Part shown: positions 12,219 through 43,314 of the stretch, piece after piece
Numbering within the stretch: position 1 is the stretch's first letter
How the letters are laid out: each line of letters opens with the position of its first letter
Assembly (NCBI GenBank): GCA_903920005.1
Contig: CAIXKI010000012.1
Span: 1 to 45,094, forward strand
DNA length: 45,094 nt
Direction of reading: 5' to 3'
From: an uncultured delta proteobacterium
GTDB taxonomy: Bacteria > Bdellovibrionota_C > UBA2361 > OMII01
The notes under the pieces: generated by a model
Database searches by the model: none
Seen by the model: the letters and a program-made list of their open reading frames with translations, nothing else
What the model was told of the DNA's origin: nothing
Program-made: the position numbers and the translations under genes

Positions 12219-13490
12219 TTACAGCTCCGTCCTACTATCATCTGGATAACCGATTAGATCTCGGGCAGAGTCAGCCACACGCGCGGACTCACATCCCGCA
12301 AGGAAGCGCAGAATGGTGCCGACTGATTTTCGAGTATCCTCGTGTTGTGGAGGATTTCTTCGAAGCACCTCAATCACCATCGACAAAATACTTGAAGAGG
12401 GGCTACGCGAAACTATCACTGAGACCCGCGTAACGATAGAAGCCTCAAACAAGGTCTGTCGCTCAACCGCCTTGAGCAAGCCCTGAAGAACCTCAGGGGT
12501 ATCATCAACCCGCTCTACCAAGGCTTCAAACAAGCAATCGAGCATATGCTCTGCCGTATGCCGCGGAACCTCCTCTAGTAGCACCCCGAGATTACTTGCA
12601 GCCGCTTGTACTATCCGCGGCTCATGGTGCCATATGCAATCGATAAGCTGCTCAACAGCCTTCGGAAGAGGAGCGACCCGAGAAAGGTACACAGCTGTAA
12701 AATCCCGGTGAAGACGCAAATTAAGATTATCACCGCACTCGATATCCTGAACCATAAGCGCCGAAACGGGACCTGACGACACCTCTCGAAACAGCTCCAT
12801 AAAAGCTTCATACTGATTGGAGTGGTTCGATAGAAACTTATGACAGGCATACGTACAAGCTGCCTCTACAACACCCCGCTGCCTTTCATTCAAACTCGCG
12901 CACGCTTTCCATAACATATGAACCGCGATCTCTTGAAGCGCGGGCGCAGGGTGACAAAGAGCCTCTACAGCACCAAGAAAAGGTCGTTGCGCTAACGCTA
13001 CGCCATCAACTACCCGATAAGGACGAAGCTCCTGATAGAGATCCTTCCCCCTAACGGCGAGCCCCGTTCGACTAAAGGCGAGCGCCAGAGCGGATTGATA
13101 GGGGAACTGAACTTCGAGCGGTATCTCAACGAACCCCGCCATCACCTCATGAACTCGCTGTACTACCATCTTTCTTGGGTCACTCAGGAAATAGGTGAGA
13201 AGCGGTCTTGCGACAGGATCGTGTGACACGAACGCCGAGACTACCTCTATTCCCTTGGCCACCAGTCGCGCATCCGACTCCTGAAAAAGCAGATCAATAA
13301 CGGCCGTCGGAACACAGCGCAACTCGCTTCGATGTTGCAGCAACTTTGCAAGCGCGTGTTCTCGCACTTGAGGTTCAGCATCCTTCAAAAAGGAGAGCAC
13401 CAATGGCAGCGACGTGCTCATACGAGCAGCCTCTTCATTCTGAGGGGAAGCCCCCCTTACCAATTTGTCGTGCGGATTTTCAGCTTGCAT
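12219..13490 (-). CDS. HEAT-like alpha-solenoid repeat protein
   Basis: The 423-residue protein is almost entirely helical, with repeated units resembling HEAT/armadillo repeats, for example 'FLKDAEPQVREHALAKLL' near residue 35, 'HPAPALQEIAVHMLWKAC' near 185 and 'HHEPRIVQAAASNLGVLL' near 290. There is no signal peptide, membrane segment or catalytic motif, so it is probably a cytoplasmic scaffold. ATG 13490 has no visible ribosome site; the internal ATG at 13421 ('MSTSLPLV') has AGAGG eight bases upstream and may be the true start. Downstream of the CHASE2 kinase on the same strand, it could be a partner of that receptor, but a 420-base gap separates them. Confidence 0.65.
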   Translation of the reverse strand: MQAENPHDKLVRGASPQNEEAARMSTSLPLVLSFLKDAEPQVREHALAKLLQHRSELRCVPTAVIDLLFQESDARLVAKGIEVVSAFVSHDPVARPLLTYFLSDPRKMVVQRVHEVMAGFVEIPLEVQFPYQSALALAFSRTGLAVRGKDLYQELRPYRVVDGVALAQRPFLGAVEALCHPAPALQEIAVHMLWKACASLNERQRGVVEAACTYACHKFLSNHSNQYEAFMELFREVSSGPVSALMVQDIECGDNLNLRLHRDFTAVYLSRVAPLPKAVEQLIDCIWHHEPRIVQAAASNLGVLLEEVPRHTAEHMLDCLFEALVERVDDTPEVLQGLLKAVERQTLFEASIVTRVSVIVSRSPSSSILSMVIEVLRRNPPQHEDTRKSVGTILRFLAGCESARVADSARDLIGYPDDSRTEL

Positions 13491-13910: not shown

Positions 13911-15986
13911 CTACCGACGTCGAATATTTCCGTACAGGGGGTTGCCAAGCATGATGCGGGAGAGGAGTCCAAAGAAGGTGCCGCATCCAACCGCGGTGAC
14001 AAGGGGTAGGAATAGCCCAACGGAGAAGAGTCCATATTGAAGCAAGATAAAGGCAAGTATCGAACACGGAAGAGCGACGAGTAACGTGACTCCGGAAAGC
14101 CCCAAAACTATCAGAGCAAAAAAGGTACAGACTGCGCCCTGTATTCCGATCTCACGCTGAATTGATACACGCTTGATCCAATATCTCATGAGAAGATTAG
14201 AGGTAGCGGTGGCGTGAATCTCAGTTCCGAACGTAGTGGTGTCAAACGGGGTGGTAAAGGCCTCCCTCTGCGAGGGGCCCGTTCGACTCTTCAAATTTAA
14301 GCCTACGAACACGATCTTGTCCGCGAAAACCTGCGGAGGAATTGGATGATCTTCGGCCAAGACCATATAGTACGGCACCGTTGATATCGTTCGTGACGAA
14401 CCGTAAAAGTTTATCAGGTCCCGCTCGCCTACATACTCACCAGCAAATGTAAGTCCGCTAGCAGCTTCAGCAAGACTTTGAACCTCAGGGAAAAGACTCG
14501 ATCGCGTCACGTTAAACTCGCGCGGCCTTCCATACCGAACAGGGAGCCCAACCGTTCCTATCCCCGCGGCTTTTGAAGCGAATACAGGCGCGGGCTTCAG
14601 CAGCTCCTCAAGCATATAGGATCCATTGAGTGTCGCCTGCTGAGACAGTCCAACGGCTGCGCCGAGGAAGGTGGGCATTCGCGTCATGGCAAATGCGAGC
14701 TCCTCATCCTTCTTCGGCTCCAACGACGGCTCAACAAAGAGGATATCGAACACGACCCGTTTAGCCCCAGCATCCGCAAGTTTATTGACGAGCCGCGCAT
14801 GAAGCTCTCGAGGCCATTGTGATGTGAGCGGCACAGATAGGTTGGAATAGCTCTGCTCATCCATCGAAACTATCATCACATCAGGGCTCGGTGGAGTAGG
14901 CCCCCGCAGCGCAAAGAGATTATCAAGCTGTCCTAACTCGATGCGAGAGACGGTCTCAGTCGTTGAGATAGGAAGAAACAACAGCCCCGAGAGAAGAGCG
15001 ACCATCATTTTCGCTCCCAATGTTCCCCGACGCATCGTTCGGAAAACCCGCGTATGGAGCGGGGCATCCATGAGAACCTGGTCAATAGCGAGTGTATTTG
15101 GGACGAGGTTACTCACTAAACTGACATCGATCTGCTTAGGAGCGTGCTTATCTAGATTCGCCGCAAAAGAAGAGAGCGACCTCATTCGCTCCTTCGGATC
15201 TATTTCCAGGAGCCCCAGCAAACCTGACGCTAGCCACTCTGGGGTGTCCGGTCGAAGCTCGCGCGGATCACGAGGAGCTTCCTCAACTTTTCGCATAATG
15301 ACACGCGCCGGTATCTCATCATCGATGGGCGCCTCCCCGGTTAAGAGCTGATAGAGAATCGCTCCAAGCGCATAATAGTCGACAGCTATCGTGGATTCCT
15401 CCCCCACGAGCGTCTCGGGTGCTAAGAAGGTAATCGTTCCCACTATCTCGCCAGAGGATACGGTCAACATCGAAGCGCCACCTCGTGCGATACCGAAATC
15501 GGTAATCTTAAGGCGGCCACCGGGAAGCATCATAATATTTGCGGGCTTGAGATCTCGATGGATCACGCCAACAGAGTGCACAGCCGAAATACCGCGCATC
15601 AACTGCGCGGCGATACTTAAGACCGTTGGAATCGGAATCCCACCCTGCGACAACAGCGCCTCAACCGTGCTGCCGGCAAGATACTCCATCGTGTAGAAGA
15701 GAGTGTCCCCTTCTTGCCCGAAATCAAACGTCCGCACGACGTTCTCATGGTTAATTTTGTGTGTTAATCGAACCTCTCGGAGGAATCGTTGGACGATGTC
15801 ATCTTTAAAGTGCGCGCCTTTACGAAGGATCTTGATCGCGACGGTGCTCTCACCAAGCACGATATCTTCCGCAAGATACACTGAGGCCATGCCGCCACTT
15901 CCGAGAGGGCGAATGATCTTGTATCGACTACCGACGATGTGTCCGGGGGCTAGATAATTCCCTCCCCCTTCATCGGGTGCTCCCAT
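13911..15986 (-). CDS. membrane Ser/Thr protein kinase with CHASE2 sensor domain
   Basis: The 691-residue receptor begins with a complete Hanks-type kinase: G-loop 'LGSGGMASVY' at about 28-37, lysine in 'VAIKIL' (K52), catalytic 'HRDLKPANIM' near 143, 'DFGIARGG' near 165 and 'APETL'. A membrane helix ('MMVALLSGLLFLPI', about 325-340) leads into an extracytoplasmic CHASE2 domain with the typical start 'SPDVMIVSMDEQSYS' and 'AGAKRVVFDILFVEPS'. Three hydrophobic helices close the protein (about 600-680). CHASE2 receptors more commonly have the sensor first and the output domain last, so the order here is reversed. It faces a FecR-TPR-barrel gene divergently, suggesting a shared envelope-signalling role (inference). 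Ligand and targets are unknown. Confidence 0.9.
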   Translation of the reverse strand: MGAPDEGGGNYLAPGHIVGSRYKIIRPLGSGGMASVYLAEDIVLGESTVAIKILRKGAHFKDDIVQRFLREVRLTHKINHENVVRTFDFGQEGDTLFYTMEYLAGSTVEALLSQGGIPIPTVLSIAAQLMRGISAVHSVGVIHRDLKPANIMMLPGGRLKITDFGIARGGASMLTVSSGEIVGTITFLAPETLVGEESTIAVDYYALGAILYQLLTGEAPIDDEIPARVIMRKVEEAPRDPRELRPDTPEWLASGLLGLLEIDPKERMRSLSSFAANLDKHAPKQIDVSLVSNLVPNTLAIDQVLMDAPLHTRVFRTMRRGTLGAKMMVALLSGLLFLPISTTETVSRIELGQLDNLFALRGPTPPSPDVMIVSMDEQSYSNLSVPLTSQWPRELHARLVNKLADAGAKRVVFDILFVEPSLEPKKDEELAFAMTRMPTFLGAAVGLSQQATLNGSYMLEELLKPAPVFASKAAGIGTVGLPVRYGRPREFNVTRSSLFPEVQSLAEAASGLTFAGEYVGERDLINFYGSSRTISTVPYYMVLAEDHPIPPQVFADKIVFVGLNLKSRTGPSQREAFTTPFDTTTFGTEIHATATSNLLMRYWIKRVSIQREIGIQGAVCTFFALIVLGLSGVTLLVALPCSILAFILLQYGLFSVGLFLPLVTAVGCGTFFGLLSRIMLGNPLYGNIRRR

Positions 15987-16312
15987 GCTTCCACTTTTCC
16001 TTGGTGCGTCAGAACGCGTTACCTAAAAGGATGGTGACAAAGATTACTACCGCGCTTTTTGATGGTTTAGCTGCCCCTGTCGAAAACTCCGAAAAAATAT
16101 TCTACGTGCCGTATAGGAGCACGCTCGCGTTTCTTCGGACCCTTATGCCGTGCGTCGTCTAAACTCTCAAATGCTGGCTGCGAAACCTCTTTTCACCTCT
16201 CCAGTGGGTTGTATCGGCACGTTTTGGGCCGGATATGCACGCATTCTAGGGCTTTAGCGCTTCTCAAAGGGGACTAGGAGCATCTCATCCATACGGGAGA
16301 AATAGGTTAAAC
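15987..16312. other. divergent intergenic region between kinase and FecR-barrel genes
   Basis: The 326-base region should hold both promoters and possibly shared control. It contains a CGTGC/GCACG dyad at 16105-16123. The plus ORF 15977-16162 has no protein features. A GGAGAAATAGG ribosome site lies just before the FecR gene. Confidence 0.4.
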
Positions 16313-19300
16313 ATGGCTAACTCTCAGAAATTCCTGAAGGCTTTGGTCGGCGTACTGCTGACAACCATCCTATTTGCCCGACCGGCAATCTCTCAAACGT
16401 CGGTTGTGGGAAAGCTCTATCTAGCCGAGGGCTCAGTTTTCGTGCGCCCCGCAGGAGCATCAACGTGGAATCAAATTCAGGTGGGAGCCCCACTCTCCGT
16501 CGGCGACACAGTAAGAACCGGCGATGATGGGAAAGCCGCCCTGGAGTTTATCGACGGCGCGCTCGTGCGACTCGGCCGCCTCTCCGCGATGACCTTTAAC
16601 GAAGTCAGCCCCACGGGGGCGCCTGCGGTCATGCAACACAACGGAAAAGCCTACTTCTTCTCCCGAGGGGCTCGTAAAGAGCCGTCTATCGAAACTCCGA
16701 TGGTCAACGCAGCAATTTACGGAACTGAACTCGTTGTGGATGTCACATCAGAGAAGACTACGATCGATGTTCTTCACGGCTCAATCAAAGCATCGAACGA
16801 GCTCGGAGCGGAATCAGTAGGTGTCGGTGAAAGCGTTACTGCGCGACGTGGCGCTCGCCTCACAAAAACTATCCTGGTGCGCCCACAAGATGCTGTGCAA
16901 TGGATGATTCGCTTCCCTTTTGTCATCACATCTCTTGATATCGCGCCATCGGCGGATACCTCATGCGACATTCAGTGCACCCTCTCCGCTCAAGAAGCTA
17001 TCACCAAAGCAGCGAAGGGAGCCTCCCTCTTTGATGAGGCTCGAAGAGCTCCGAAGCCCCTCTCCGCGACACCCCGCGGACGGATCCTTCAGGCGATAGC
17101 GCTCTGGCAAGTAGGAGATCTAGCATCCTCTCAGGCGATTCTCGCAAAACTTCCCAGTGCGCTTGGAGCTCGAGACGCGGCGATAAGGCATCTCCTTCAA
17201 GGATTCGCGGCGCTGCAACGAAGCGACGTAGCAGCAGCAAAGTCTCACGCGGCGGACGCGGAGCAACTGATTCCGGGTATGGTTAATACCGCCCTACTCA
17301 ATTCATATATAGCTCAGGCACAGGGTGATGTCGACCTAGCGCTAACAGAATCAACCGCCCTGCGAAAAGCGTACCCCCAAATAGCCGAGACCTACGACCG
17401 AGAAGCGGAACTCCTTCTCTCTAGTGATAAACGGGAAGCAGCATCTGAGGTAATGACGACAAGAACCTCACAGTTCGGCTCAAGCCCTCTCTCTTCGACT
17501 CTGGCCGGATTCTCAGCTCTCGCGAATAAGGAGATGGAAGCGGCGCGCTCCTATTTCGATACCGCCATAAAAAGCGACCCCTCTCAATCCCTCGCGTATC
17601 TCGGAAACGCGTTACTGGACGCTCAATCAAGGGACTACTCGACCGCTCAAGGCAACCTTTCACGAGCTATTCAATTAGATCCAAGCGTCGCCGTCTATCG
17701 CTCATACCTTGGGAAGTTATTCTTTGAGGACGAGAACTCTCCCAAAGCAATTAAAGAGTTCGACGCGGCGGTTGCTCTCGATCCAAACGATCCGACCCCC
17801 TACCTCTATCGCTCGTACGCGAAGATAGCGGAAAACGACCCCGTCGCCGGGTTAACCGATGTGGAACGCTCCATCAAACTGAATGATGGGCGCGCTGTCT
17901 ATCGGTCATCTCTCCTTCTTGACCGAGACGTAGCGGTACGAAGCGCGGGGCTCGCTCGAGCGTTCTCTGAACTTGGATTCACTGAGGCCGCGCGAATCGA
18001 GGCTATTAAATCAATCACCGACGATTATTCAAACTACTCAGCGCACCGTCTTCTCTCAGACTCATATACCTCTATTCTTGATACTGAGGGATTCAATTCT
18101 GAGCAACGAATCGCCGACCTTTTAGCTCCATTGAGCTTCAACCTCTTTAATAGCGTTGGAGAACAGGCGAGCCTTGGTGACTATAATGCTCTGTTTGACA
18201 AGAAAGAGACGAGGAAAGCGGTAGGTCTCAACTGGAGTTCAAACCAGGACCACTACGTTGGGAACCTCCTCGCGACGGGGAAGGGAGAGGACTACGGGTA
18301 TCTATTGAGCTATCGCCCGGATTACGCGTTCGGCTCGCATCACAACGCCTTCTTCGGAGATTCAAAACTCAGAGGAGCTCTCCAGTATGAAACCTCCCCG
18401 AATGACCGATTTGTGCTCGACAGCTCATGGAATTTGCGGAACGTCGAAGGTAGCCAACAGGGGGACTACTCTGAAGACGTCCACGTGGGTTCCGTCAGAC
18501 TCGGCTATAACCACAGAGTCTCTACCAATCTGAGATTCCTGGCACAGGGGGAATTCGCCCGAGATAGTGAACACACCTCAGAACGCGTACTGCGGGACAT
18601 TACGGTCGCGGTGCCTGAGTGGAACGAAGAGTTCTCGGTAGGCTCAATCGGAGACGAATATACCAGCCAACGAGTATATCGAGAAAGCCTAGCGACACAG
18701 ATGATCTATACTTCGCACTATCTTGATTCAGTAAGTGGCATTGAGGGCCTCTATGCCGACACAAGCAGACGAGGATCCTACGAACTCCTTGAGATTCAAG
18801 ACGTTCCTCCTTTTGCCACCAGCGCAAGTAGCAGTAGCGGCAACCTCTCCTCTGGAACCGTGTACGAATATGTATCTCTGAAGGTGCCACGCCGAGCGAC
18901 CCTCACCTTGGGGGTTGACGCGACCCACATCGAAAGAGACCTCACCGAAGTCGCTCCTTTTATTGATGGCAGCGACTCACAAGGCAAAGTCTCTCCAAAG
19001 TTCGGCCTCGTTCTCACTCCAACATCATGGCTCACCGGTCGAGCGGCATACTTCGAAGGGTTGCGAAAATCTGTTCTTGAGGACCTCAGTAGCTTGGAAC
19101 CGACTCTTGTGGGCGGAATCAATCAACGGTTCAATGATTTTAGCGGAACAGAGAGTAGAAATCTCGGCTTCGGTCTTGATGTCAAAGACGCCAATACGCT
19201 CTACGCTGGAGCTCAATACACACGACGACACATTATCGATTCGTTCGGAAATGTCAGCGATTTCGCGATATGGGATGGAGAATCAACGATCCCAAGTACT

Positions 19301-19759
19301 CCGCGTACCTATGGGTTTGAGGACAGTCACGCGAACTCAGACACTCTTCGCGGATACGTGTACTCAGTTCTTACACCTAAATCTGTTCTCACAGCTGATT
19401 CGCTCTACGAACATTATGCCGAGACCGATCCGGAGATAAGAGCTGACACCTCGATTGATGGGGTAATCGACACGCAGCGATATCGTTTAGGCTACAAATA
19501 TTTCCTTGGAAAGCATTTCTCCGTTGGCACGCAGGCAACCTATCGCGACCAACAACTTTCTCAGACCGACGATCCAAATGGATTCTGGCTCTTCGACCTT
19601 GGAGTCAACTACCGATTCTCGGAACAACACGGACGAATGTTCGCGCGGCTCGATAACATCCTCGACCGCGACTTTACCTACGCCCAAACAAGGGGGCTGG
19701 AGACTCAGGTGCTCGAGGGCCGCTCGTTCATCGTTGGAGTTAATTACAACTTCTGGTAG
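16313..19759 (+). CDS. FecR-TPR-outer-membrane beta-barrel fusion protein
   Basis: The 1148-residue protein has a signal peptide (cleavage near 'AISQTS', residue 27). It then has a FecR-type domain (about 35-170; 'VRPAGASTWNQIQVGAPLSV', 'VGDTVRTGDDGKAALEF') and a helical TPR region (about 215-600; 'SLAYLGNALLDAQSRDYSTA', 'SVAVYRSYLGKLFFEDENS', 'DPNDPTPYLYRSYAKIAEND'). From about 620 to the end alternating aromatic/polar strands form a TonB-receptor-like barrel that finishes 'FIVGVNYNFW', a typical outer-membrane barrel C-terminus. No obvious plug domain is present. It probably sits in the outer membrane with FecR and TPR parts in the periplasm. Transport substrate is unknown; the divergent CHASE2 kinase may sense the same signal. 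A glycosyltransferase gene follows on the same strand. Confidence 0.85.
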   Translation: MANSQKFLKALVGVLLTTILFARPAISQTSVVGKLYLAEGSVFVRPAGASTWNQIQVGAPLSVGDTVRTGDDGKAALEFIDGALVRLGRLSAMTFNEVSPTGAPAVMQHNGKAYFFSRGARKEPSIETPMVNAAIYGTELVVDVTSEKTTIDVLHGSIKASNELGAESVGVGESVTARRGARLTKTILVRPQDAVQWMIRFPFVITSLDIAPSADTSCDIQCTLSAQEAITKAAKGASLFDEARRAPKPLSATPRGRILQAIALWQVGDLASSQAILAKLPSALGARDAAIRHLLQGFAALQRSDVAAAKSHAADAEQLIPGMVNTALLNSYIAQAQGDVDLALTESTALRKAYPQIAETYDREAELLLSSDKREAASEVMTTRTSQFGSSPLSSTLAGFSALANKEMEAARSYFDTAIKSDPSQSLAYLGNALLDAQSRDYSTAQGNLSRAIQLDPSVAVYRSYLGKLFFEDENSPKAIKEFDAAVALDPNDPTPYLYRSYAKIAENDPVAGLTDVERSIKLNDGRAVYRSSLLLDRDVAVRSAGLARAFSELGFTEAARIEAIKSITDDYSNYSAHRLLSDSYTSILDTEGFNSEQRIADLLAPLSFNLFNSVGEQASLGDYNALFDKKETRKAVGLNWSSNQDHYVGNLLATGKGEDYGYLLSYRPDYAFGSHHNAFFGDSKLRGALQYETSPNDRFVLDSSWNLRNVEGSQQGDYSEDVHVGSVRLGYNHRVSTNLRFLAQGEFARDSEHTSERVLRDITVAVPEWNEEFSVGSIGDEYTSQRVYRESLATQMIYTSHYLDSVSGIEGLYADTSRRGSYELLEIQDVPPFATSASSSSGNLSSGTVYEYVSLKVPRRATLTLGVDATHIERDLTEVAPFIDGSDSQGKVSPKFGLVLTPTSWLTGRAAYFEGLRKSVLEDLSSLEPTLVGGINQRFNDFSGTESRNLGFGLDVKDANTLYAGAQYTRRHIIDSFGNVSDFAIWDGESTIPSTPRTYGFEDSHANSDTLRGYVYSVLTPKSVLTADSLYEHYAETDPEIRADTSIDGVIDTQRYRLGYKYFLGKHFSVGTQATYRDQQLSQTDDPNGFWLFDLGVNYRFSEQHGRMFARLDNILDRDFTYAQTRGLETQVLEGRSFIVGVNYNFW

Positions 19760-19934
19760 GCCTCTTACGCGATAGAGCGGACGGTATTCTTGAAAACACA
19801 TCTAGAAGAACTCTTGAAAGATTCACCGCGACACCAGGTAGGCCCTCTCTTGAGACTCGCATCATACCTCGCTTTACTCGTTGCCCTTCCCAAAACTCCG
19901 ACCGATACTTGTCGAGACTTTAGTAAGGCTTCAC

Positions 19935-21767
19935 ATGAGTATTGAGCAAGCTCGCATATTCGCCGAAAAAAAGCTCTTTCATAAGGCACTGCCACTCTTG
20001 GCCGATCTGATGGCGCAAAAGCCTCCTATTCGCGGAGCTCATCTCGAATACGCCAAAATCGTAATGAGCACTACATTCAAATATCTCGCCTTGGAAGCTG
20101 CCCGTAAGGAGCACACGCTCTTTAACTGCCCTGAGGCAAAAGATTTCGCGACATCGATCGAAGAATCAATGAAGGCGAAACAAGTAAGGCACACTGAACA
20201 TCCCCTCATCTCGCTAATCGTCGTCGCAAAATCTGGCGAGGAGGTTTTGTGGAAGCGATGCTTAGAATCGATCTCGTTACAGGTTAACACCAAGGTCGAG
20301 GTCTGTCTTATTTCTGATACTCCGCTTCCGATGTGGGGGACACTTCCCTCATCTGTATCGCTACACCCCTTGGCCTCACGTCCTTTCAGCAAGCGCGAGG
20401 AGATAACGCGAGCTCTTCACATCGCTCGGGGAGATATCGTATCCGTTATAGAACGACCCGAGACAGTGATTGGCGAATGCGGACTTCTCTTTATCGCCGC
20501 CGCATTTTACGCCATGCCGATGGCCGATGTGATCCAAAGCGAGAGAACGTTTCGTTCTGACAATCTTGTTTTTGAACCAACTCGATGTCATCAGCCACAC
20601 TGGAGCCAGGCTGTCGTTCTAGATGCTGAAACACTTGAGCCTCCAACGCTGCTCTTTTCGTGGAGGGGTGTGTTTTTTAGGAGGCAAGCTCTTCTCAACC
20701 AACTCCCATTTGAGTCAGACATAGAGGAGGCCTTAGCGCTCGACGTGGCAATAAAAACTCTCCGCTCAAAGCCTATCCACACCCTCGCTATACCGGTATT
20801 GCTTGACGAAACCCCATCTGAGGGCCGAAGCTATCAGATCGGTCTGAGAGAGATTGCGGAAGCCAAGAGCTTAATCAGTAGAGAGAAAAAGCGCCTTAAA
20901 GAGAAGCCCTCGACATCCCATCCCACGACACTAGACCCATTCACTAAACCAAACCCGGATCAAAAGTTGCCGAGAGTCGCGTCGAACCTTTTACGAGGCG
21001 GACGAGCAGCGGCGCCATCAATCTCGCTTGTAACCTCTGTGCTCAACGGCCGCGACTATATTGAGCGCTGCATCGACTCAATCCTCTCTCAAGGTTATCC
21101 TAACCTTGAGTACATTATCCTCGACGGAGGAAGCACCGATGGAACGCAGGAGGTTATAAAGAAGTACGAAAACCACCTCTCACACTGGAGCTCGGGTCCG
21201 GACGACGGTCACTATGCCTCTGTGCAAGCGGGGCTAACTCGCTCTACCGGTTCGATAATGTCATGGCTTAACGCGGATGACTGCCTCACGCCGTACTCCC
21301 TTGATCTTGCGGCCGCGATCTTTACCGGAGCCCCTCACATCGATTGGCTGACTGGCGCCCTGTGCATCTACTCCGCCGACAACCAGCTTGAGGTTGGAGG
21401 CATTCCAAGTCTCTCTGGCGAGATATATTTTAATGATGGGTTCGACGCGCCCTTTATTCAGCAGGAAGGAACGTTCTGGAAACGCTCCTTATGGGAACGG
21501 GCGGGTGGCGCACTCGATCTACGGCTGGAGCTCGCCGCGGACATGGAGTTATGGACCCGCTTCTTCCAGTATTCCCACCCCTATGCACTATCCGTTCCAC
21601 TCGGAATCTTTCAGATGCGCCCTGGTCAACGTTCAGAGATGTTCCGACACCGATACTTTGTGGAAGCCTACCGAGTAATTCAACGACTAAAAACTATCGG
21701 CATAGAACATTTCCGCCATCCTCATCCAGAGGAAACAAGATTGCCGATCCCCGTAGAGCCGGGTTAG
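19935..21767 (+). CDS. two-domain family-2 glycosyltransferase with helical N-terminus
   Basis: From ATG 19935 the protein has 610 residues (the track start at 19881 lacks support). The first ~80 residues are TPR-like helices. Residues ~85-310 resemble a GT-A glycosyltransferase ('HPLISLIVVAKSGEEVLWKR') but the expected metal-binding DXD is missing ('VSVIERPE'). Residues ~350-600 form an intact GT2 domain with 'ISLVTSVLNGRDYIERCI', 'ILDGGSTDGTQEVI' and 'MSWLNADDCLTPYS', where the aspartates bind the sugar nucleotide and metal. The first domain is therefore probably inactive or structural. The sugar and acceptor are unknown. It lies 175 bases after the FecR-barrel gene and may be co-transcribed. 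Related GT2 signatures occur in the 990-residue fusion near 43 kb. Confidence 0.82.
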   Translation: MSIEQARIFAEKKLFHKALPLLADLMAQKPPIRGAHLEYAKIVMSTTFKYLALEAARKEHTLFNCPEAKDFATSIEESMKAKQVRHTEHPLISLIVVAKSGEEVLWKRCLESISLQVNTKVEVCLISDTPLPMWGTLPSSVSLHPLASRPFSKREEITRALHIARGDIVSVIERPETVIGECGLLFIAAAFYAMPMADVIQSERTFRSDNLVFEPTRCHQPHWSQAVVLDAETLEPPTLLFSWRGVFFRRQALLNQLPFESDIEEALALDVAIKTLRSKPIHTLAIPVLLDETPSEGRSYQIGLREIAEAKSLISREKKRLKEKPSTSHPTTLDPFTKPNPDQKLPRVASNLLRGGRAAAPSISLVTSVLNGRDYIERCIDSILSQGYPNLEYIILDGGSTDGTQEVIKKYENHLSHWSSGPDDGHYASVQAGLTRSTGSIMSWLNADDCLTPYSLDLAAAIFTGAPHIDWLTGALCIYSADNQLEVGGIPSLSGEIYFNDGFDAPFIQQEGTFWKRSLWERAGGALDLRLELAADMELWTRFFQYSHPYALSVPLGIFQMRPGQRSEMFRHRYFVEAYRVIQRLKTIGIEHFRHPHPEETRLPIPVEPG

Positions 21768-21984
21768 GGATAGTAGGCCTCTCGCGGATCATGGACGGAT
21801 ACCTGCCCTACGCGAACTCCATGTTGCATTGGTGATCGTGCTCGGTAGCCTGCCGATCGTTGCGCCCCGCGGTCGAAGAGGCATGAAACATTTGCACCCG
21901 TAGGCTTGCCGAAGATAGGAGGCCTCCGCTCCATTCGCGCCTTGAATACAAAGCAGGAGGAACACATCTCACCGACCTGCTTGC

Positions 21985-22806
21985 TCACCCTAGACCAACG
22001 TCCAGCATCATCATGATTACAAACCCACCAATAAACCCGAGCGACGCGACATCGGTCGATCGGTCAAGCTGCGTCTCCGGAATAACTTCCTCGATAACCA
22101 CGTAGATCATCGCGCCAGCGGCAAACGCTAACGCATAGGGAAGGATGGGACGCATTTGAAGAACCGCCAAGGCGCCAATTACGCCAGCGATAGGCTCGGC
22201 TATGGCGGATAGCTGACCATACCAAAAGCATTTGAGACGAGAGACACCGAGGCGTCGCAACGGAAAGGCAACGGCCATTCCTTCTGGGAAGTTCTGTAGC
22301 CCGATACCGATAGCGAGAGACACCGCCGCGGCGATAGAAGTTTCAGGGATGCCTGCCGCGACACCTCCGAACAAGACACCTACAGCGAGCCCCTCCGGGA
22401 TGTTATGCAAAGTTATCGCCAACACTAACAAGGTCGTTCTGCGCCACTTAGTATGAACACCCTCCGCTTGAGACTTCGGAAAGTTAATGTGCAAGTGAGG
22501 AAGAAACTGATCCAGCGCGTACAAGAAAATGGCGCCCAAGCAAAACCCTACCGCGGCTGGCGTAGCCTTAGCGAAGCCGTCACCTTCGCTCATATCAATG
22601 GCCGGCGAAAGCAAAGACCAAAAGCTCGCGGCGATCATAACACCGCCAGTGAAGCCCAGCATGCCATCAAGAGCTTTGCGATTAAGCTCTTTAAAAAAGA
22701 AGACAAGTCCCGCACCGCACGCGGTCACAAACCACGTAAAAAGCGTGGCAACAAGAGCCCCCCAAACCGGGTGAATAGTTTCAAAAAAGCTTAAAATATA
22801 ATCCAT
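21985..22806 (-). CDS. ZIP-family divalent metal transporter
   Basis: The 273-residue integral membrane protein has about eight hydrophobic helices and the two ZIP signatures in helices IV and V: 'LHNIPEGLAVGVLFGG' and 'GLQNFPEGMAVAFP', whose His, Asn, Pro and Glu residues line the metal site. A short cytoplasmic histidine segment ('FLPHLHINF') lies before helix IV. Proteins of this GufA/ZupT-like branch import zinc and related divalent ions across the inner membrane. The gene is separated from dapF-like by 27 bases on the same strand, so the two may be co-transcribed. No metal-responsive operator was recognised. Confidence 0.92.
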   Translation of the reverse strand: MDYILSFFETIHPVWGALVATLFTWFVTACGAGLVFFFKELNRKALDGMLGFTGGVMIAASFWSLLSPAIDMSEGDGFAKATPAAVGFCLGAIFLYALDQFLPHLHINFPKSQAEGVHTKWRRTTLLVLAITLHNIPEGLAVGVLFGGVAAGIPETSIAAAVSLAIGIGLQNFPEGMAVAFPLRRLGVSRLKCFWYGQLSAIAEPIAGVIGALAVLQMRPILPYALAFAAGAMIYVVIEEVIPETQLDRSTDVASLGFIGGFVIMMMLDVGLG

Positions 22807-23797: not shown

Positions 23798-24994
23798 ATG
23801 AACCCAGCTTTGGCCTACGAAAACGCCACTTGCCCGTACTATACCCGCGGGGAGTGTAACTCATGCTCACTTTTGGGAATTACTCAGGGCTCTCGCCTCT
23901 CGTCTAAAGAGGCCTCGGTGCTCTCTGCCATAAGGGCTAAGGGAGCCTCTCCGGAGACCGTGGAAGCTATTAGAATCCCCCATCATCCCTGGGGCTCCCG
24001 GTGCAAAGTGAAGATGAATGTCACTGGCACTACCGCAGCCCCGTGTATCGGTATCATCAAAGCGGATAGAACGTCGGTAGACCTTGTGGAATGCCCGCTC
24101 CCACCTTCCCATATCAGAACCCTTCTCTCAGGCCTTCGCGGCTTCATCACGGACGCAGCTCTCGTACCGTATGACGTAGAGGCGCGCCGAGGAGAGCTAA
24201 AAAATATCATCGTGATGAGTAACCACGATGGTTCTCAGGGGATCCTTCGGTTCGTTGTTCGAACCTCTGAATCTATTCCGCGTATAAAGAAACGAGTCAC
24301 AGAGCTTCAAACCAACTATCCGTGGCTCTCGGTCATAACGTGCAACATTCAGCCCCTTCCCGCGGCTATTCTTGAGGGTCCGGAAGAGATCTTTCTCACG
24401 GATACACAGATGATAGATGAGCGATACGGGGAGCTCTTACTCTCGTTCGCGCCACAATCCTTCATGCAAGTAACGCACGAAATAGCGCAGGCACTCTACC
24501 AACGGGCGGCCAAGTATGTACGAGAGAGAAGCGTTACCCGAGCTCTCGATCTCTTTTGCGGCGTTGGCGGGTTCTCTCTGTCGATCGCGCCCGCGTGTAG
24601 GGAGGTCACAGGTGTAGAGCTCTCAGCTAGAGCGATAGAGAGCGCTCAACATTCGGCTCGACGCTCAGGGTTTTCTAACACCACCTTTGTAGCCAGTGAC
24701 GCTGAACACTTTCTCGCTCAAAACCAAGGAGCCTCATACGATCTCGTCGTAACCAATCCTCCTCGGCGAGGGTTATCCGCGGAGATACTACGCCAACTTA
24801 AGTTGCTTGCTCCATCGACGATTATATATTCTAGCTGCTCCCCGGAAACCTTTGGCCGCGACTGCGCGGCGCTCCACGATACATACCTCCTTAGGGGTAT
24901 AGCGCTCTTCGATATGTTCGCCATGTCAGAGCATTGTGAGGTGCTGGGTTTTCTCGAAAGGAGAGGGTCTCCAGAGCCACTACCGAGCCTATAA
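23798..24994 (+). CDS. rlmC: 23S rRNA (uracil-C5)-methyltransferase, RlmC/RumB type
   Basis: The 398-residue enzyme methylates C5 of a uracil in RNA using SAM. The N-terminal cysteines 'CPYYTRGECNSCSLLG' match the iron-sulphur cluster of RlmC/RlmD, and there is no TRAM domain before them, which favours the RlmC (U747) branch. The SAM-binding motif is 'ALDLFCGVGGFSLSIA' near residue 248, 'VVTNPPRRGL' near 315, and the catalytic cysteine is in 'YSSCSPETFGRD' near 345. The gene is divergent from dapF and overlaps the end of the Thr-Pro repeat gene by six bases, tail to tail. TrmA-type specificity is less likely because of the cluster cysteines. Confidence 0.9.
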   Translation: MNPALAYENATCPYYTRGECNSCSLLGITQGSRLSSKEASVLSAIRAKGASPETVEAIRIPHHPWGSRCKVKMNVTGTTAAPCIGIIKADRTSVDLVECPLPPSHIRTLLSGLRGFITDAALVPYDVEARRGELKNIIVMSNHDGSQGILRFVVRTSESIPRIKKRVTELQTNYPWLSVITCNIQPLPAAILEGPEEIFLTDTQMIDERYGELLLSFAPQSFMQVTHEIAQALYQRAAKYVRERSVTRALDLFCGVGGFSLSIAPACREVTGVELSARAIESAQHSARRSGFSNTTFVASDAEHFLAQNQGASYDLVVTNPPRRGLSAEILRQLKLLAPSTIIYSSCSPETFGRDCAALHDTYLLRGIALFDMFAMSEHCEVLGFLERRGSPEPLPSL

Positions 24995-26470
24995 CCACTC
25001 TCCGGGAATAGGCATATTTTGGTATGACGTTACCTTTGTTTTGCTCGTTATTTGTAGAACTAGGTAGGAGGTAAGGCCGTGACGAACTCCCGCAACCCGC
25101 GTAACTGAACTACCACTAGGCAGCGCAGGCACTGAAAGAGTTCGCCATTGGTTAGCGGAATCCAAGATTTGAAGCACCTGCTTCGAGCCAATTCGCGCAA
25201 GAATACTCGCCGTTGCAAGTTGCCCTTCACGCCTCGGAACGATTCCAAAAGTGACGTCAGCGCATCTCGAGTCGATTCGGGGTGATGATAGAAGCGTCAG
25301 CCCACCTTTTTTTGCCACAACGTTTAGTGTTTTTCGATTTTTGCTCTCATTCAGATAAAACACAGCACTGGTACCATCCTGTGGAGCCGCACAACGAACT
25401 TCAATCGCGGTACTCGGCACCGGCAAGCCTTTAGTCAGAAACTTCCCGTTACTAGTAAATGAGAGCGCGTTCTTCGATGTATTGAGGACCGTTGGGGTAT
25501 AATTATTATCGATATAGCAACCGACTACGGGTTCTCCCAGAGCGTTGATGGAAGCGAACTGCCGATATGGGATAGATCCAGAGAGCGAGACGACATTCCA
25601 TAGATACTTGGTTGAAGCTTTCTTAACCGTGACGATGCCCCATCCGCTATCCACTCTGCCTATATCAATCGCGACCGCTTTGGTATCCACTTGAATCTTT
25701 CTGAGGGAGCCTTCAGCATGTAACACGACCTCGGCGGCCCCCCTCACCCCAACGAACGCAGCGTCAGCTACAAGATCGCCCTCGATATCTCCCTCGACGG
25801 GAGTGGGTGTAAATGTAGGTGTGCTTACCACGGGCGGCACGACCGATGTCGGTGTTTGGGTTGGGGTACTTGTTTGAGTTTCACTTGGCGTATTGGTAGA
25901 GGTGGCGGTCGGAGTATCCGTTGGAGTGCTGGTTGGCGTTTCGGTCGGAGTCTCCGTTGGAGTATGGGTGGGAGTTTCTGTTGGTGTATTCGTTGGAGTT
26001 TCAGTTGGAGTTTCCGTCGGTGTATTCGTTGGAGTTTCCGTTGGAGTTTCCGTTGGAGTTTCCGTCGGTGTATTCGTTGGAGTTTCCGTCGGCGTTTCTG
26101 TTGGTGTATTCGTTGGAGTTTCCGTCGGTGTTTCTGTTGGTGTTTCTGTTGGTGTATTCGTTGGAGTTTCCGTCGGTGTATTCGTTGGAGTACTCGTCGG
26201 AGTATTTGTCGCTACCAAGCAGGTAGTTCTATCGGCACTCGAAATCGTTCCGTCACCACAATTTCTACAAGAAGATTTACCAGAGAGCGGTTGATATTTA
26301 CCATCAGGACAAAGGATGCACGACGCCGCGTTCTGAGTTGTACTGTATGTTCCAGGATCACACGGTAGACATTTCTTCTTAGAAACGTACATACCTGACT
26401 GGCAGGTCTGAGCCATTCCCGAGGGAGCAAAGAACAAAAGGAAAAAAAGAAGAGAAAAAATATACTTCAT
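24989..26470 (-). CDS. secreted protein with Cys-rich module, Thr-Pro repeat stalk and C-terminal domain
   Basis: The 493-residue protein has a signal peptide (cleavage near 'GMAQTC'). Residues ~22-85 are a cysteine-rich segment with '[18 protein letters not shown]' and '[15 protein letters not shown]', the pattern of GCC2/GCC3 (ephrin-receptor-like) modules. Then come over 20 'TPT' units alternating with N, S, E and D (about 90-215), an extended stalk that could be O-glycosylated. The last ~280 residues look beta-rich and have no family I recognise. ATG 26470 is preferred to the GTG at 26473. It is likely exported to the cell surface or periplasm; no anchor or sorting signal is seen. It lies downstream of transketolase behind a palindromic repeat, so it is probably transcribed separately. 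Confidence 0.75.
25850..26212. repeat. in-gene tandem repeat coding Thr-Pro units
   Basis: On the plus strand this reads as variations of GTTGGAGTTTCC and GTCGGTGTATTC, repeating every 12 bases and, less strictly, every 36. It encodes the Thr-Pro stalk on the minus strand. Several blocks are near-identical, so copy number may vary between strains by slippage, and assemblies here can be unreliable. Confidence 0.85.
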
Positions 26471-26645
26471 CACCTAGTAGCCCTGATCCTCGTGCGACCA
26501 CAACGGTCGCACAACTGCAACCTTCCGGCGGTCAATATTCATTCTCATTCGCGAGAACGAACTCTTTTAACTCGGTGTACGAGGTTCAAGTATGACGGTG
26601 ATGATGCTGAGGTGCTTACACCTCACATCTTAAATAAAACGTACA

Positions 26646-40341: not shown

Positions 40342-43314
40342 TTACGAATGGGCAACGCTCATTCCCGATGCGGTCGCGGTTCTCTGAGGTCCACGCGAAG
40401 ATCCTTTGAATTCGGCCACAGGACCAACGCCTTCACGCACCACGATCACATCTCCCAACTCAGCAAACTGTCCGTAGTCTGTCTCAGGAGATGGGTACAT
40501 CTTAAGCCCTCGCTGAGAGACTGCGGGAACGGAGAGGTAGATCTGAGCACGCTCTGGAGCTGGTCGCGTCAATCGATCTTGCACCGCCTGACGCACAACG
40601 AGCGGATCAATATCCTTAACGCATGCTGTAGTCTCGTAATTACAGTACCAATTGCATCGCGCACACGAGACAGGTGTGGACACCGCTGAGGTAAGCGCCG
40701 AATAAGGCATGAAACGACCAAAATGCCCCCCTCCAAGAATCACCACATTAGGGGTGCCAACGGCACATGCGATGTGGGCTGGTCCACTTTCGGCTCCGAT
40801 CATCAACGCGCACCGAGAGACAACCGCCGCGACATCAGTAAGACTTGTTTTTCCGAAGAGACTAACCACCCGAAGACTAGTTCCACGAATGGCTCGACCG
40901 AGACTTTCGGATTCGTGTTCCGCGCCGAGGCCAATAATCACATATCCAGCGTCGCTGAGCATCGCCATCGTCTCTGAGAAGCGTTCATAGACCCGCCCCG
41001 GAAGTTGCGCTCCGGGAGCGAACGCGATCGCCTTCTCTTGGGGGATCTGCAACTCTCGAAAGAATCTTTCGGCTGTCTGCTCTGATGTCGGATCGCGCCA
41101 TACAACCGGCTTGCGAGTACCTGCATTAACACCAAGCCTGCCAAGAAAGGCATCGTATTTTTCAATCTCCGGCATCCATGTATCGACCTCCGTTACAAGC
41201 GCCGTGTAGGGAGAATCACCTCGCGATGAAAGACTCGAGTCCTTATTTTGATCGTCCCCCTCAAACGCTATCGCCGTAGCCCCGGCAGCCCATCCACATA
41301 TCTGATCTGAAAGCACATCTCTCGAATAGGCGGTATTAAAAACAAGATCAGCGTTCCAACCGCACACCTCCCTCTCCAAATTGAAGAGCGAGGTAGGATC
41401 ATCGAGTCTGAAGGTCATTATTTTGGAGACGAACGGACAATGGGTAAAGAGTTGCGCTACTCGCTCTTGACAGACGACGGCGATCTCAGCGCCAGGATAG
41501 CAAGCCTTCAGTGGCTCAATCGTTGACGCGCCCAAAACGTTATCCCCTATAGAGTCTGTTCGCACCCATAGTATTCGACTGGCTTGCTTAGGAAGCCTCG
41601 GTGATTGGAAGTGTCCTCCATCGCTCTCTACGGTGACCGAAACCGACAGCGGCGTAGGAGTGAACTGAGCGATACAGAACCCGAATTTCTCCCTTGAGTC
41701 AGCGAGCACTTGAAATCGCGGGTCCCTCTTGAGTTGAGAAAAGCTCTTGTGGTGCTTTATGTGGTACACATCATCGAGCGCGATGATACATGGTCCCTTA
41801 AGCTTCTCTAGAAGGTACGAAAACTCCACAAAGCCCATGTGACCGGCGCTATCGAGTATGACGAAGTCGGGCCTATCCTCGAAAGCGTTAAGCGCCTTAC
41901 CAAGCAAATCCTCTTCAACTCCGTCGAAATTTGTCTCTTCATAATACAAAGTCGCTCGATTGTGCTCACGATGATCAACAAAGATATCGTCAAACTCAAT
42001 GTTGCGAACGCATGCCTCCTCAATCTGCTCAACCGTCGGAAGGACAGAACGAGGAACCGACAACCCGTGACAAAGGCGTACTAAAGGAGCAAGCCCAGCC
42101 TGAGTCAGATTGTATTGCGCCTGCGCTACATTCTGCGGGTTAACCTCTATCGAGTAGAAGCGAGTGTCGTTGAGGTTGAGTTGCCGTAGGGTCGATGCGA
42201 TTACTGAGGTTGTCCCTGTGCCGAGATACGTCCCAGTTTCAATGATCTTTGTTGGACGATACTTAGTAAATACGTCTCGAATGCTTCGAGCGAAGTCAGA
42301 CTCTTGAGAGATCTTTGTGAGATCGAGATCGCCAGCATAGTCCTCGGCCACCTTGACAGTTCTCTTCGCTGAGGCCGAGCTCTTTTGCGTCGCCGAGCAC
42401 TGCTCCAGAAGCCCCATCACCTGCTCTTGAGCCTCATTACTAGGGAAGATTTTTGAAAAGTTTACCGACGCCGCACCACCTGTCGAATTCGTCAAATAGC
42501 TCACAAGCCCGTGGCACGCTGCATCATCCGAAGGAATGCGAGACTGCTCATAAGGCACTGGACTCGCAACTCGTTGAGCATAGTAATCTCTCCAGTACGC
42601 AACCTGTTGATCCATAGGAAGCGCGCGCACGACAGGCGCAACAACTTTCCAATGCTCCTCTATCTGCTGATTCTCAGTTCCCGGGGGGTGCGATTTCGAG
42701 GCAAGGGGGGTATTTGCGAGAACCGCATCAACAAACGCAAACGATTCGTTTTTCGCGAGCTTCAAGAAAACATCATAGTCGATACTGAACCGCAGATCCT
42801 CTCGGAAGAGACCGATCGAGTCGAGAGCCTTGCGAGAAAGATAGACGCTCGATCGGTGAGGATGCCGCTCGCAAAGCCACCAGCGCACAAGCTCATGGCT
42901 TTTCGTGACAGCACCTGGCACCACAACGTACCTTTCACTCCTGGCTCCATCAACCAGCGCGCACGAACCATAGAGCACAGCGGCGTCTGGAAACTGTTCT
43001 CGTGCATTAAGAATTGCGGTAAACGCGCCCGGTTCGAGCCACTCATCGCCGTTCAACCATAGAACGAGGTCGCCCCGCGCTACTCGAAGAGCCTTATTCA
43101 ACGCCTGGCCCTCTCCAGTGTTAGGCTCCGAGAGCCATCGGAGGTGCCCATATTTAGAAAGGACCTCAACGGTCCCATCCTTCGAATCGCCGTCGACTAT
43201 GAGGTGCTCAACCCGGTGGTCCCCCTGCGACATCACACTTTCAATGCAACGAGGAAGACTCGCCGCGCAGTTTGAAACTGGCGTAATGACTGAAATGAGC
43301 GGTAGGTGCTTCAT
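40342..43314 (-). CDS. GT2-methyltransferase-GT9 three-domain fusion
   Basis: The 990-residue protein contains three enzymes. Residues 1-220 are a GT2 glycosyltransferase ('ISVITPVSNCAASLPRCI', 'LIVDGDSKDGTVEVL', 'LVLWLNGDEWLEPGAF'). Residues ~330-560 are a Rossmann-fold methyltransferase-like domain with 'KIIETGTYLGTGTTSVIAST', 'FYSIEVNP' and 'DFVILDSAGHMGFVEF'. Residues ~575-970 are a GT9 heptosyltransferase-like enzyme: 'ILWVRTDSIGDNVLGASTI', 'AFAPGAQ', 'MIGAESGPAHIACAVGTPNV' and the cysteine cluster 'CARCNWYCNYETTACVKDI'. No membrane segment is seen. It probably builds and modifies a surface glycan. The whole frame is open without frameshift, so the fusion is real in this sequence. It converges on the enoyl-CoA hydratase gene. 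Confidence 0.85.
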   Translation of the reverse strand: MKHLPLISVITPVSNCAASLPRCIESVMSQGDHRVEHLIVDGDSKDGTVEVLSKYGHLRWLSEPNTGEGQALNKALRVARGDLVLWLNGDEWLEPGAFTAILNAREQFPDAAVLYGSCALVDGARSERYVVVPGAVTKSHELVRWWLCERHPHRSSVYLSRKALDSIGLFREDLRFSIDYDVFLKLAKNESFAFVDAVLANTPLASKSHPPGTENQQIEEHWKVVAPVVRALPMDQQVAYWRDYYAQRVASPVPYEQSRIPSDDAACHGLVSYLTNSTGGAASVNFSKIFPSNEAQEQVMGLLEQCSATQKSSASAKRTVKVAEDYAGDLDLTKISQESDFARSIRDVFTKYRPTKIIETGTYLGTGTTSVIASTLRQLNLNDTRFYSIEVNPQNVAQAQYNLTQAGLAPLVRLCHGLSVPRSVLPTVEQIEEACVRNIEFDDIFVDHREHNRATLYYEETNFDGVEEDLLGKALNAFEDRPDFVILDSAGHMGFVEFSYLLEKLKGPCIIALDDVYHIKHHKSFSQLKRDPRFQVLADSREKFGFCIAQFTPTPLSVSVTVESDGGHFQSPRLPKQASRILWVRTDSIGDNVLGASTIEPLKACYPGAEIAVVCQERVAQLFTHCPFVSKIMTFRLDDPTSLFNLEREVCGWNADLVFNTAYSRDVLSDQICGWAAGATAIAFEGDDQNKDSSLSSRGDSPYTALVTEVDTWMPEIEKYDAFLGRLGVNAGTRKPVVWRDPTSEQTAERFFRELQIPQEKAIAFAPGAQLPGRVYERFSETMAMLSDAGYVIIGLGAEHESESLGRAIRGTSLRVVSLFGKTSLTDVAAVVSRCALMIGAESGPAHIACAVGTPNVVILGGGHFGRFMPYSALTSAVSTPVSCARCNWYCNYETTACVKDIDPLVVRQAVQDRLTRPAPERAQIYLSVPAVSQRGLKMYPSPETDYGQFAELGDVIVVREGVGPVAEFKGSSRGPQRTATASGMSVAHS

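Follow-up and report, generated by a model that had tools for sequence, protein, structure and literature searches.

Here, we identify an 1148-residue protein with FecR, TPR and β-barrel domains, encoded on a contig of 45,094 nucleotides from an uncultured delta proteobacterium (the whole stretch analysed, hereafter the window), as a probable NsrA-type surface receptor in the outer membrane. We suggest, with a probability of roughly 0.7, that it relays signals from outside the cell over both membranes to a Ser/Thr protein kinase with a CHASE2 sensor domain. This reading builds on four computed properties, i.e., the domain architecture, a plugless barrel of 22 strands, co-location with CHASE2 genes in matching clades, and NsrA-like homology along the full length. 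Few bacterial systems are known that pass an extracellular signal across the outer membrane to an inner-membrane enzyme without TonB. The features are collected in Table 1.

Table 1. Features of the receptor locus (window positions; residues are those of the encoded protein)
Feature	Position	Strand	Basis
Receptor gene, FecR-TPR-plugless 22-strand barrel protein, 1148 aa	16313..19759	+	ORF (ATG at 16313, stop ends 19759), Pfam, homologue alignment, AlphaFold
Sec signal peptide, residues 1-27	16313..16393	+	Inspection; homologues also start hydrophobic, signal-like
FecR domain, residues 31-187 in model (Pfam 65-159)	16403..16873	+	Pfam, AlphaFold; putative contact with CHASE2
Periplasmic solenoid of TPR helix pairs, residues 220-614	16970..18154	+	Pfam, AlphaFold
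Conserved TPR-barrel linker segment, residues 595-632	18095..18208	+	Conservation in homologues
Plugless outer-membrane barrel of 22 strands, residues 633-1148	18209..19756	+	Pfam, AlphaFold, Foldseek
Partner gene, Ser/Thr protein kinase with CHASE2 sensor domain, 691 aa	13911..15986	-	Pfam; divergent from receptor
Cytoplasmic kinase domain of partner, residues 22-268	15183..15923	-	Domain search
CHASE2 periplasmic sensor domain of partner, residues 337-610	14157..14978	-	Domain search
Intergenic region of 326 bases from which kinase and receptor genes diverge	15987..16312	.	Gene neighbourhood
HEAT-repeat protein adjoining kinase	12219..13490	-	Near kinase in 3 syntenic relatives

Architecture of the receptor

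The receptor reading frame is kept at full length in relatives, and this conservation rules out a chance ORF. By eye, the protein begins with a Sec signal (KFLKALVGVLLTTILFARPAIS), and the mature N-terminus leads directly into the FecR fold (Pfam, 3e-11). About eleven TPR helix pairs follow, with the Pfam TPRs falling within about residues 285-530, and residues 643-1116 match the Pfam family TonB_dep_Rec_b-barrel (7.7e-10). An AlphaFold2 model of the whole receptor, built on a 44-sequence alignment of relatives, has a mean pLDDT of 84.6 and comprises a β-rich FecR fold, TPR helices and 22 strands at residues 633-1147; folded by itself, the barrel again has 22 strands (pLDDT 89.1). The gaps between strands alternate between short (2-5 residues) and longer ones (4-29 residues), and this alternation together with the count of 22 places both ends of the barrel, and with them the N-terminal domains, in the periplasm. 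In Foldseek searches of the PDB, all 50 matches listed were TonB-dependent transporters, whether the query was the whole model or just the barrel (E-values for the barrel to 1e-18, TM about 0.66 by query length), while a sequence search against solved structures returned TPR matches only. The protein ends on an aromatic residue (...GVNYNFW), and homologues end in NF or NFF. Thus, the first-pass annotation was right to describe an exported FecR domain fused to TPRs and to a barrel with a C-terminal aromatic residue, and the structure prediction and strand counting that it called for gave 22 strands in each of two AlphaFold runs; a soluble C-terminal domain is ruled out by these two predictions and by Foldseek.

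The same annotation saw no plug, and Pfam indeed finds no Plug domain (PF07715) in the receptor. Because four Plug domains were found elsewhere in the same genome, the absence is specific to the receptor. No TonB box was seen by eye, the motif being too weak for a firm test. One alternative is that the protein is a TonB-dependent transporter that has lost both plug and TonB box yet continues to import a substrate, the uptake of which the CHASE2 kinase would regulate or sense. By sequence and predicted fold, the barrel belongs to the transporter type, and TonB-like genes are present in the genome. However, beyond the missing Pfam match, the model leaves no room for a plug between the TPR region and the barrel, and no conserved uptake genes adjoin the receptor. 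Moreover, the plugless layout is common to several phyla and so does not represent local decay. We therefore regard import as very unlikely and favor a surface receptor.

Two further properties of the protein are relevant to this putative receptor function. First, its outer surface is acidic, with 46 acidic and 14 basic residues (net -32), and the outer part is the least conserved region of the protein, at 40% compared to 64% for the barrel core and FecR domain among kinase-linked members. Second, the linker at residues 595-632 is strongly conserved (consensus RIAxLLAPLSFN...SLNEYSALFD), with low AlphaFold confidence at residues 614-623. We speculate that this segment might be a lumen gate and could fill the barrel in place of a plug; the NsrA-type reading itself leaves the sealing of a plugless 22-strand barrel unexplained.

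Recurrent pairing with CHASE2 proteins

The first-pass annotation overlooked the divergently transcribed CHASE2 kinase gene, which is key to the function of the receptor. Its product is a transmembrane protein with an N-terminal Pkinase domain followed by CHASE2 (E 9.5e-35), and the catalytic motifs VAIK, HRDLKPAN and DFG are all present. A promoter scan gave nothing useful. The adjoining HEAT-repeat protein is conserved but lies inside a generally syntenic block, and its proximity possibly reflects shared synteny only rather than a third component. On the other side, between the receptor and dapF, glycosyltransferase and ZIP transporter genes (19881-22806) are absent from syntenic relatives and constitute a local insertion. 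The glycosyltransferase was accordingly rejected as part of the system, having no counterpart at the syntenic loci of relatives, in three of which dapF directly follows the receptor. Further along, the window encodes an exported, cysteine-rich, ephrin-receptor-like protein with a long repeat tract (24989-26473) and a 990-residue protein that joins family 2 glycosyltransferase, methyltransferase-like and family 9 glycosyltransferase domains (40342-43314).

Several lines of evidence support the pairing of receptor and CHASE2 genes. First, the same genome carries a second FecR-TPR-barrel gene (31% identity) that is divergent from a CHASE2 adenylate cyclase gene. Two of the three CHASE2 genes in the assembly thus adjoin its only two receptors, an arrangement with a chance probability of about 4e-6 if roughly 3100 genes are assumed. 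Second, a scan of 84,980 genomes yielded 54 receptor loci, which according to the submitters' record titles include Pseudomonadota, Bdellovibrionota, Myxococcota, Thermodesulfobacteriota, Acidobacteriota, Verrucomicrobiota and Chlamydiota. A CHASE2 gene adjoins the receptor in 22 of the 27 loci of the class with assessable flanks; among 26 further loci outside the class, it is adjacent in 14 and nearby in 2 more, and in rhizobia it lies directly downstream in all seven sampled loci with a downstream gene in view. At five loci in the class and at ten outside it, CHASE2 is not among the neighbours, such that the two genes either are not always paired or can cooperate in trans. Third, receptor and CHASE2 co-occur in a set of 38 relatives: each of the 22 receptor-bearing genomes also has CHASE2, and none of the 11 that lack CHASE2 carries a receptor (Fisher p 3.6e-6, uncorrected for kinship and incomplete assemblies). 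Fourth, in trees of the genus, the receptors fall into a kinase-linked clade and a cyclase-linked clade, and the CHASE2 domains split to match. Distances in the CHASE2 domain correlate with those in the FecR domain (0.76), the barrel (0.71) and the TPR region (0.56), all above 2000 permutations; the matching trees and these correlations also partly reflect shared descent.

The kinase form was found in the genus of the window, and the cyclase form in paralogues of that genus and in other families. In a gammaproteobacterial locus (L091 2-8192), a receptor is clustered with a CHASE2 cyclase and with a CHASE2 kinase whose kinase domain is C-terminal, i.e., at the other end, which suggests that kinase output arose more than once. 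In the window's genus, a second group of genes for CHASE2 Ser/Thr kinases (G001:C149, G004:C271, G008:C56 and G008:C283; L129-L132) has no receptor alongside, and a CHASE-PAS hybrid histidine kinase gene is the divergent neighbour of one receptor with no CHASE2 gene nearby (L052 4691-8155).

The composition of these neighbourhoods also bears on the earlier suggestion of a structural or export platform. As an export or secretion platform like PgaA, BcsC or Slam, the protein might handle β-propeller proteins, with CHASE2 proteins controlling export. Known exporters of this kind do combine TPRs with an outer-membrane barrel, and genes for secreted β-propeller proteins (PD40 or FG-GAP, with an Fn3-resembling C-terminal domain) adjoin many relatives. 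Such genes lie beside receptor/CHASE2 pairs or CHASE2 kinases at L033 3767-5503, L045 1117-4842 and L034 13740-16628 as well as in L046, L053, L055, L040, L129, L132 and L134, and their products are possible ligands, co-receptors or cargo. However, no propeller gene lies beside the window pair. The barrels of PgaA, BcsC and Slam have 14-16 strands, and the barrel described here is of the 22-strand transporter type rather than of this smaller TPR-linked kind; the PgaA model reaches 13.6 bits, far under its cut-off of 366.65. Similarity to PEP-CTERM PrsT, PilW and MamA (NCBIfam) stays far under the cut-offs and is confined to the TPRs. No polymer synthase or substrate gene is conserved next to the receptor, the window glycosyltransferase being missing from syntenic loci, and the conserved partner is instead a CHASE2 signalling protein. 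We therefore consider an export function improbable, if somewhat less so than import; the conserved CHASE2 partner points to an NsrA-type surface receptor.

A possible route from the cell surface to the kinase

Among relatives studied by experiment, the closest is the product of the gene immediately upstream of cyaK on pSymB of Sinorhizobium meliloti; this protein has 1197 residues, a FecR domain at residues 66-160 and TPRs. In hhalign, the family of the window protein aligns with that of the S. meliloti protein over columns 1-1144 with a probability of 100 (E 1.5e-73); for the barrel by itself, the probability is still 98.2 (E 2.7e-13). By position, length and barrel coordinates, this gene is almost certainly nsrA. 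NsrA is reported to be an outer-membrane receptor whose barrel spans residues 600-1200 and whose outer loops are acidic; it is reportedly needed for signalling by CyaK and CyaD1/D2, and CHASE2 cyclases are reported to require it to perceive a plant protein signal (PMC7529298, PMC13001267). At two rhizobial loci (L061 8307-8852, L062 8241-8780), the nsrA-cyaK pair has a divergent gene upstream that encodes a Pycsar-effector-like (PycTM) membrane protein, beside a cyclase.

These findings are consistent with a model whereby the acidic, variable and fast-evolving outer loops of the barrel would bind an external ligand. Binding may move the barrel or the conserved segment at residues 595-632, and the TPR solenoid and the N-terminal FecR domain, spanning the periplasm, would carry the signal inwards. 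We suggest that the FecR domain then touches the CHASE2 domain of the partner in the inner membrane and in that manner switches the cytoplasmic Ser/Thr kinase on or off. FecR is the likely partner of CHASE2 because FecR beside CHASE2 recurs in a different architecture in Burkholderia (PMC5192318). Computation supports export, the periplasmic position of FecR and TPRs, the plugless transporter-type barrel and the partnership with CHASE2; ligand binding, the FecR-CHASE2 contact, control of the kinase and a barrel free of cargo are what we infer.

More broadly, we see about even odds that these proteins constitute a multi-phylum family in which a plugless transporter barrel serves direct signalling from the outer to the inner membrane via FecR-CHASE2, with swappable outputs, the form in the window being an outer-membrane receptor that drives a eukaryote-like Ser/Thr kinase. 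The present evidence assigns NsrA, which has been studied as one rhizobial receptor, to a widespread group of proteins that share a transporter-type barrel and recurrent FecR-CHASE2 pairing and have interchangeable outputs, among them a Ser/Thr kinase. CHASE2, the inputs of which are mostly unknown, gains a testable partner in FecR, and the plugless 22-strand barrel gains a testable role other than transport.

Comparison with known systems

The receptor resembles TonB-dependent transporters (OprC, FhuA, FpvA and others) in its predicted 22-strand barrel, Pfam barrel match and Foldseek matches but differs in lacking a Plug domain and in carrying FecR and TPRs fused N-terminally; no TonB box is recognisable by eye. 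Like the FecA-FecR-FecI pathway, it brings together an outer-membrane barrel and a FecR domain; in contrast to that pathway, its FecR domain is exported, fused to the barrel and without an anti-sigma part, and the output is a kinase. No sigma factor gene was found among the receptor neighbours examined. The cytoplasmic anti-sigma region, inner-membrane helix and nearby sigma factor gene that characterise FecR anti-sigma regulators are thus all missing, and the initial impression that the protein is unlike both an anti-sigma FecR and an ordinary transporter holds. PgaA, BcsC and Slam share the order of periplasmic TPRs followed by an outer-membrane barrel but are exporters without a FecR domain and with dedicated synthase or cargo genes.

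In the BiofilmReg operon of Burkholderia, a LysM-FecR protein, the LysM part of which is predicted to bind the cell wall, is encoded with a CHASE2 histidine kinase (PMC5192318). The operon is similar to the window pair in that a FecR protein is encoded beside a CHASE2 sensor protein and different in that its FecR protein has neither TPRs nor a barrel and the output is a histidine kinase. Together with the extension of TPR and FecR domains towards the inner membrane, this operon would fit a structural envelope protein, an adhesin or inter-membrane tether, with the CHASE2 link monitoring the state of the envelope and not an external ligand. By contrast, the fast evolution of the acidic outer surface suggests varied external ligands, and added protein triggers NsrA-dependent signalling; we judge a structural role to be as remote as import and retain the surface receptor. 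In Campylobacterota clusters with CHASE2 adenylate cyclases, unlike in the window, FecR and TPR are described as separate genes and the output is a cyclase (PMC9239204). CHASE2 kinases in themselves have a precedent in cyanobacteria (PMC2176072). In the literature searched, to which subscription papers contributed little, we found no description of an outer-membrane receptor for a CHASE2 kinase.

NsrA and the window receptor are colinear along their full length, from signal peptide through FecR and TPR to the C-terminal barrel, with about 24% identity over the N-terminal half; both are encoded next to a CHASE2 gene and have acidic outer loops (PMC7529298). They differ in their partners: NsrA works with the CHASE2 cyclases CyaK, CyaD1 and CyaD2, whereas the window receptor is divergent from a CHASE2 Ser/Thr kinase, and no cAMP output is predicted for the window pair. 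The domain order, full-length homology and adjacent CHASE2 gene are those of an NsrA-type receptor, while the adenylate cyclase partner of the NsrA cAMP system is replaced by a Pkinase protein. Because the partner is a Pkinase protein and the cyclase pairs with the paralogue, we place the window protein in the NsrA receptor family and not in the cAMP system; what is new relative to NsrA is a predicted kinase output in place of cAMP.
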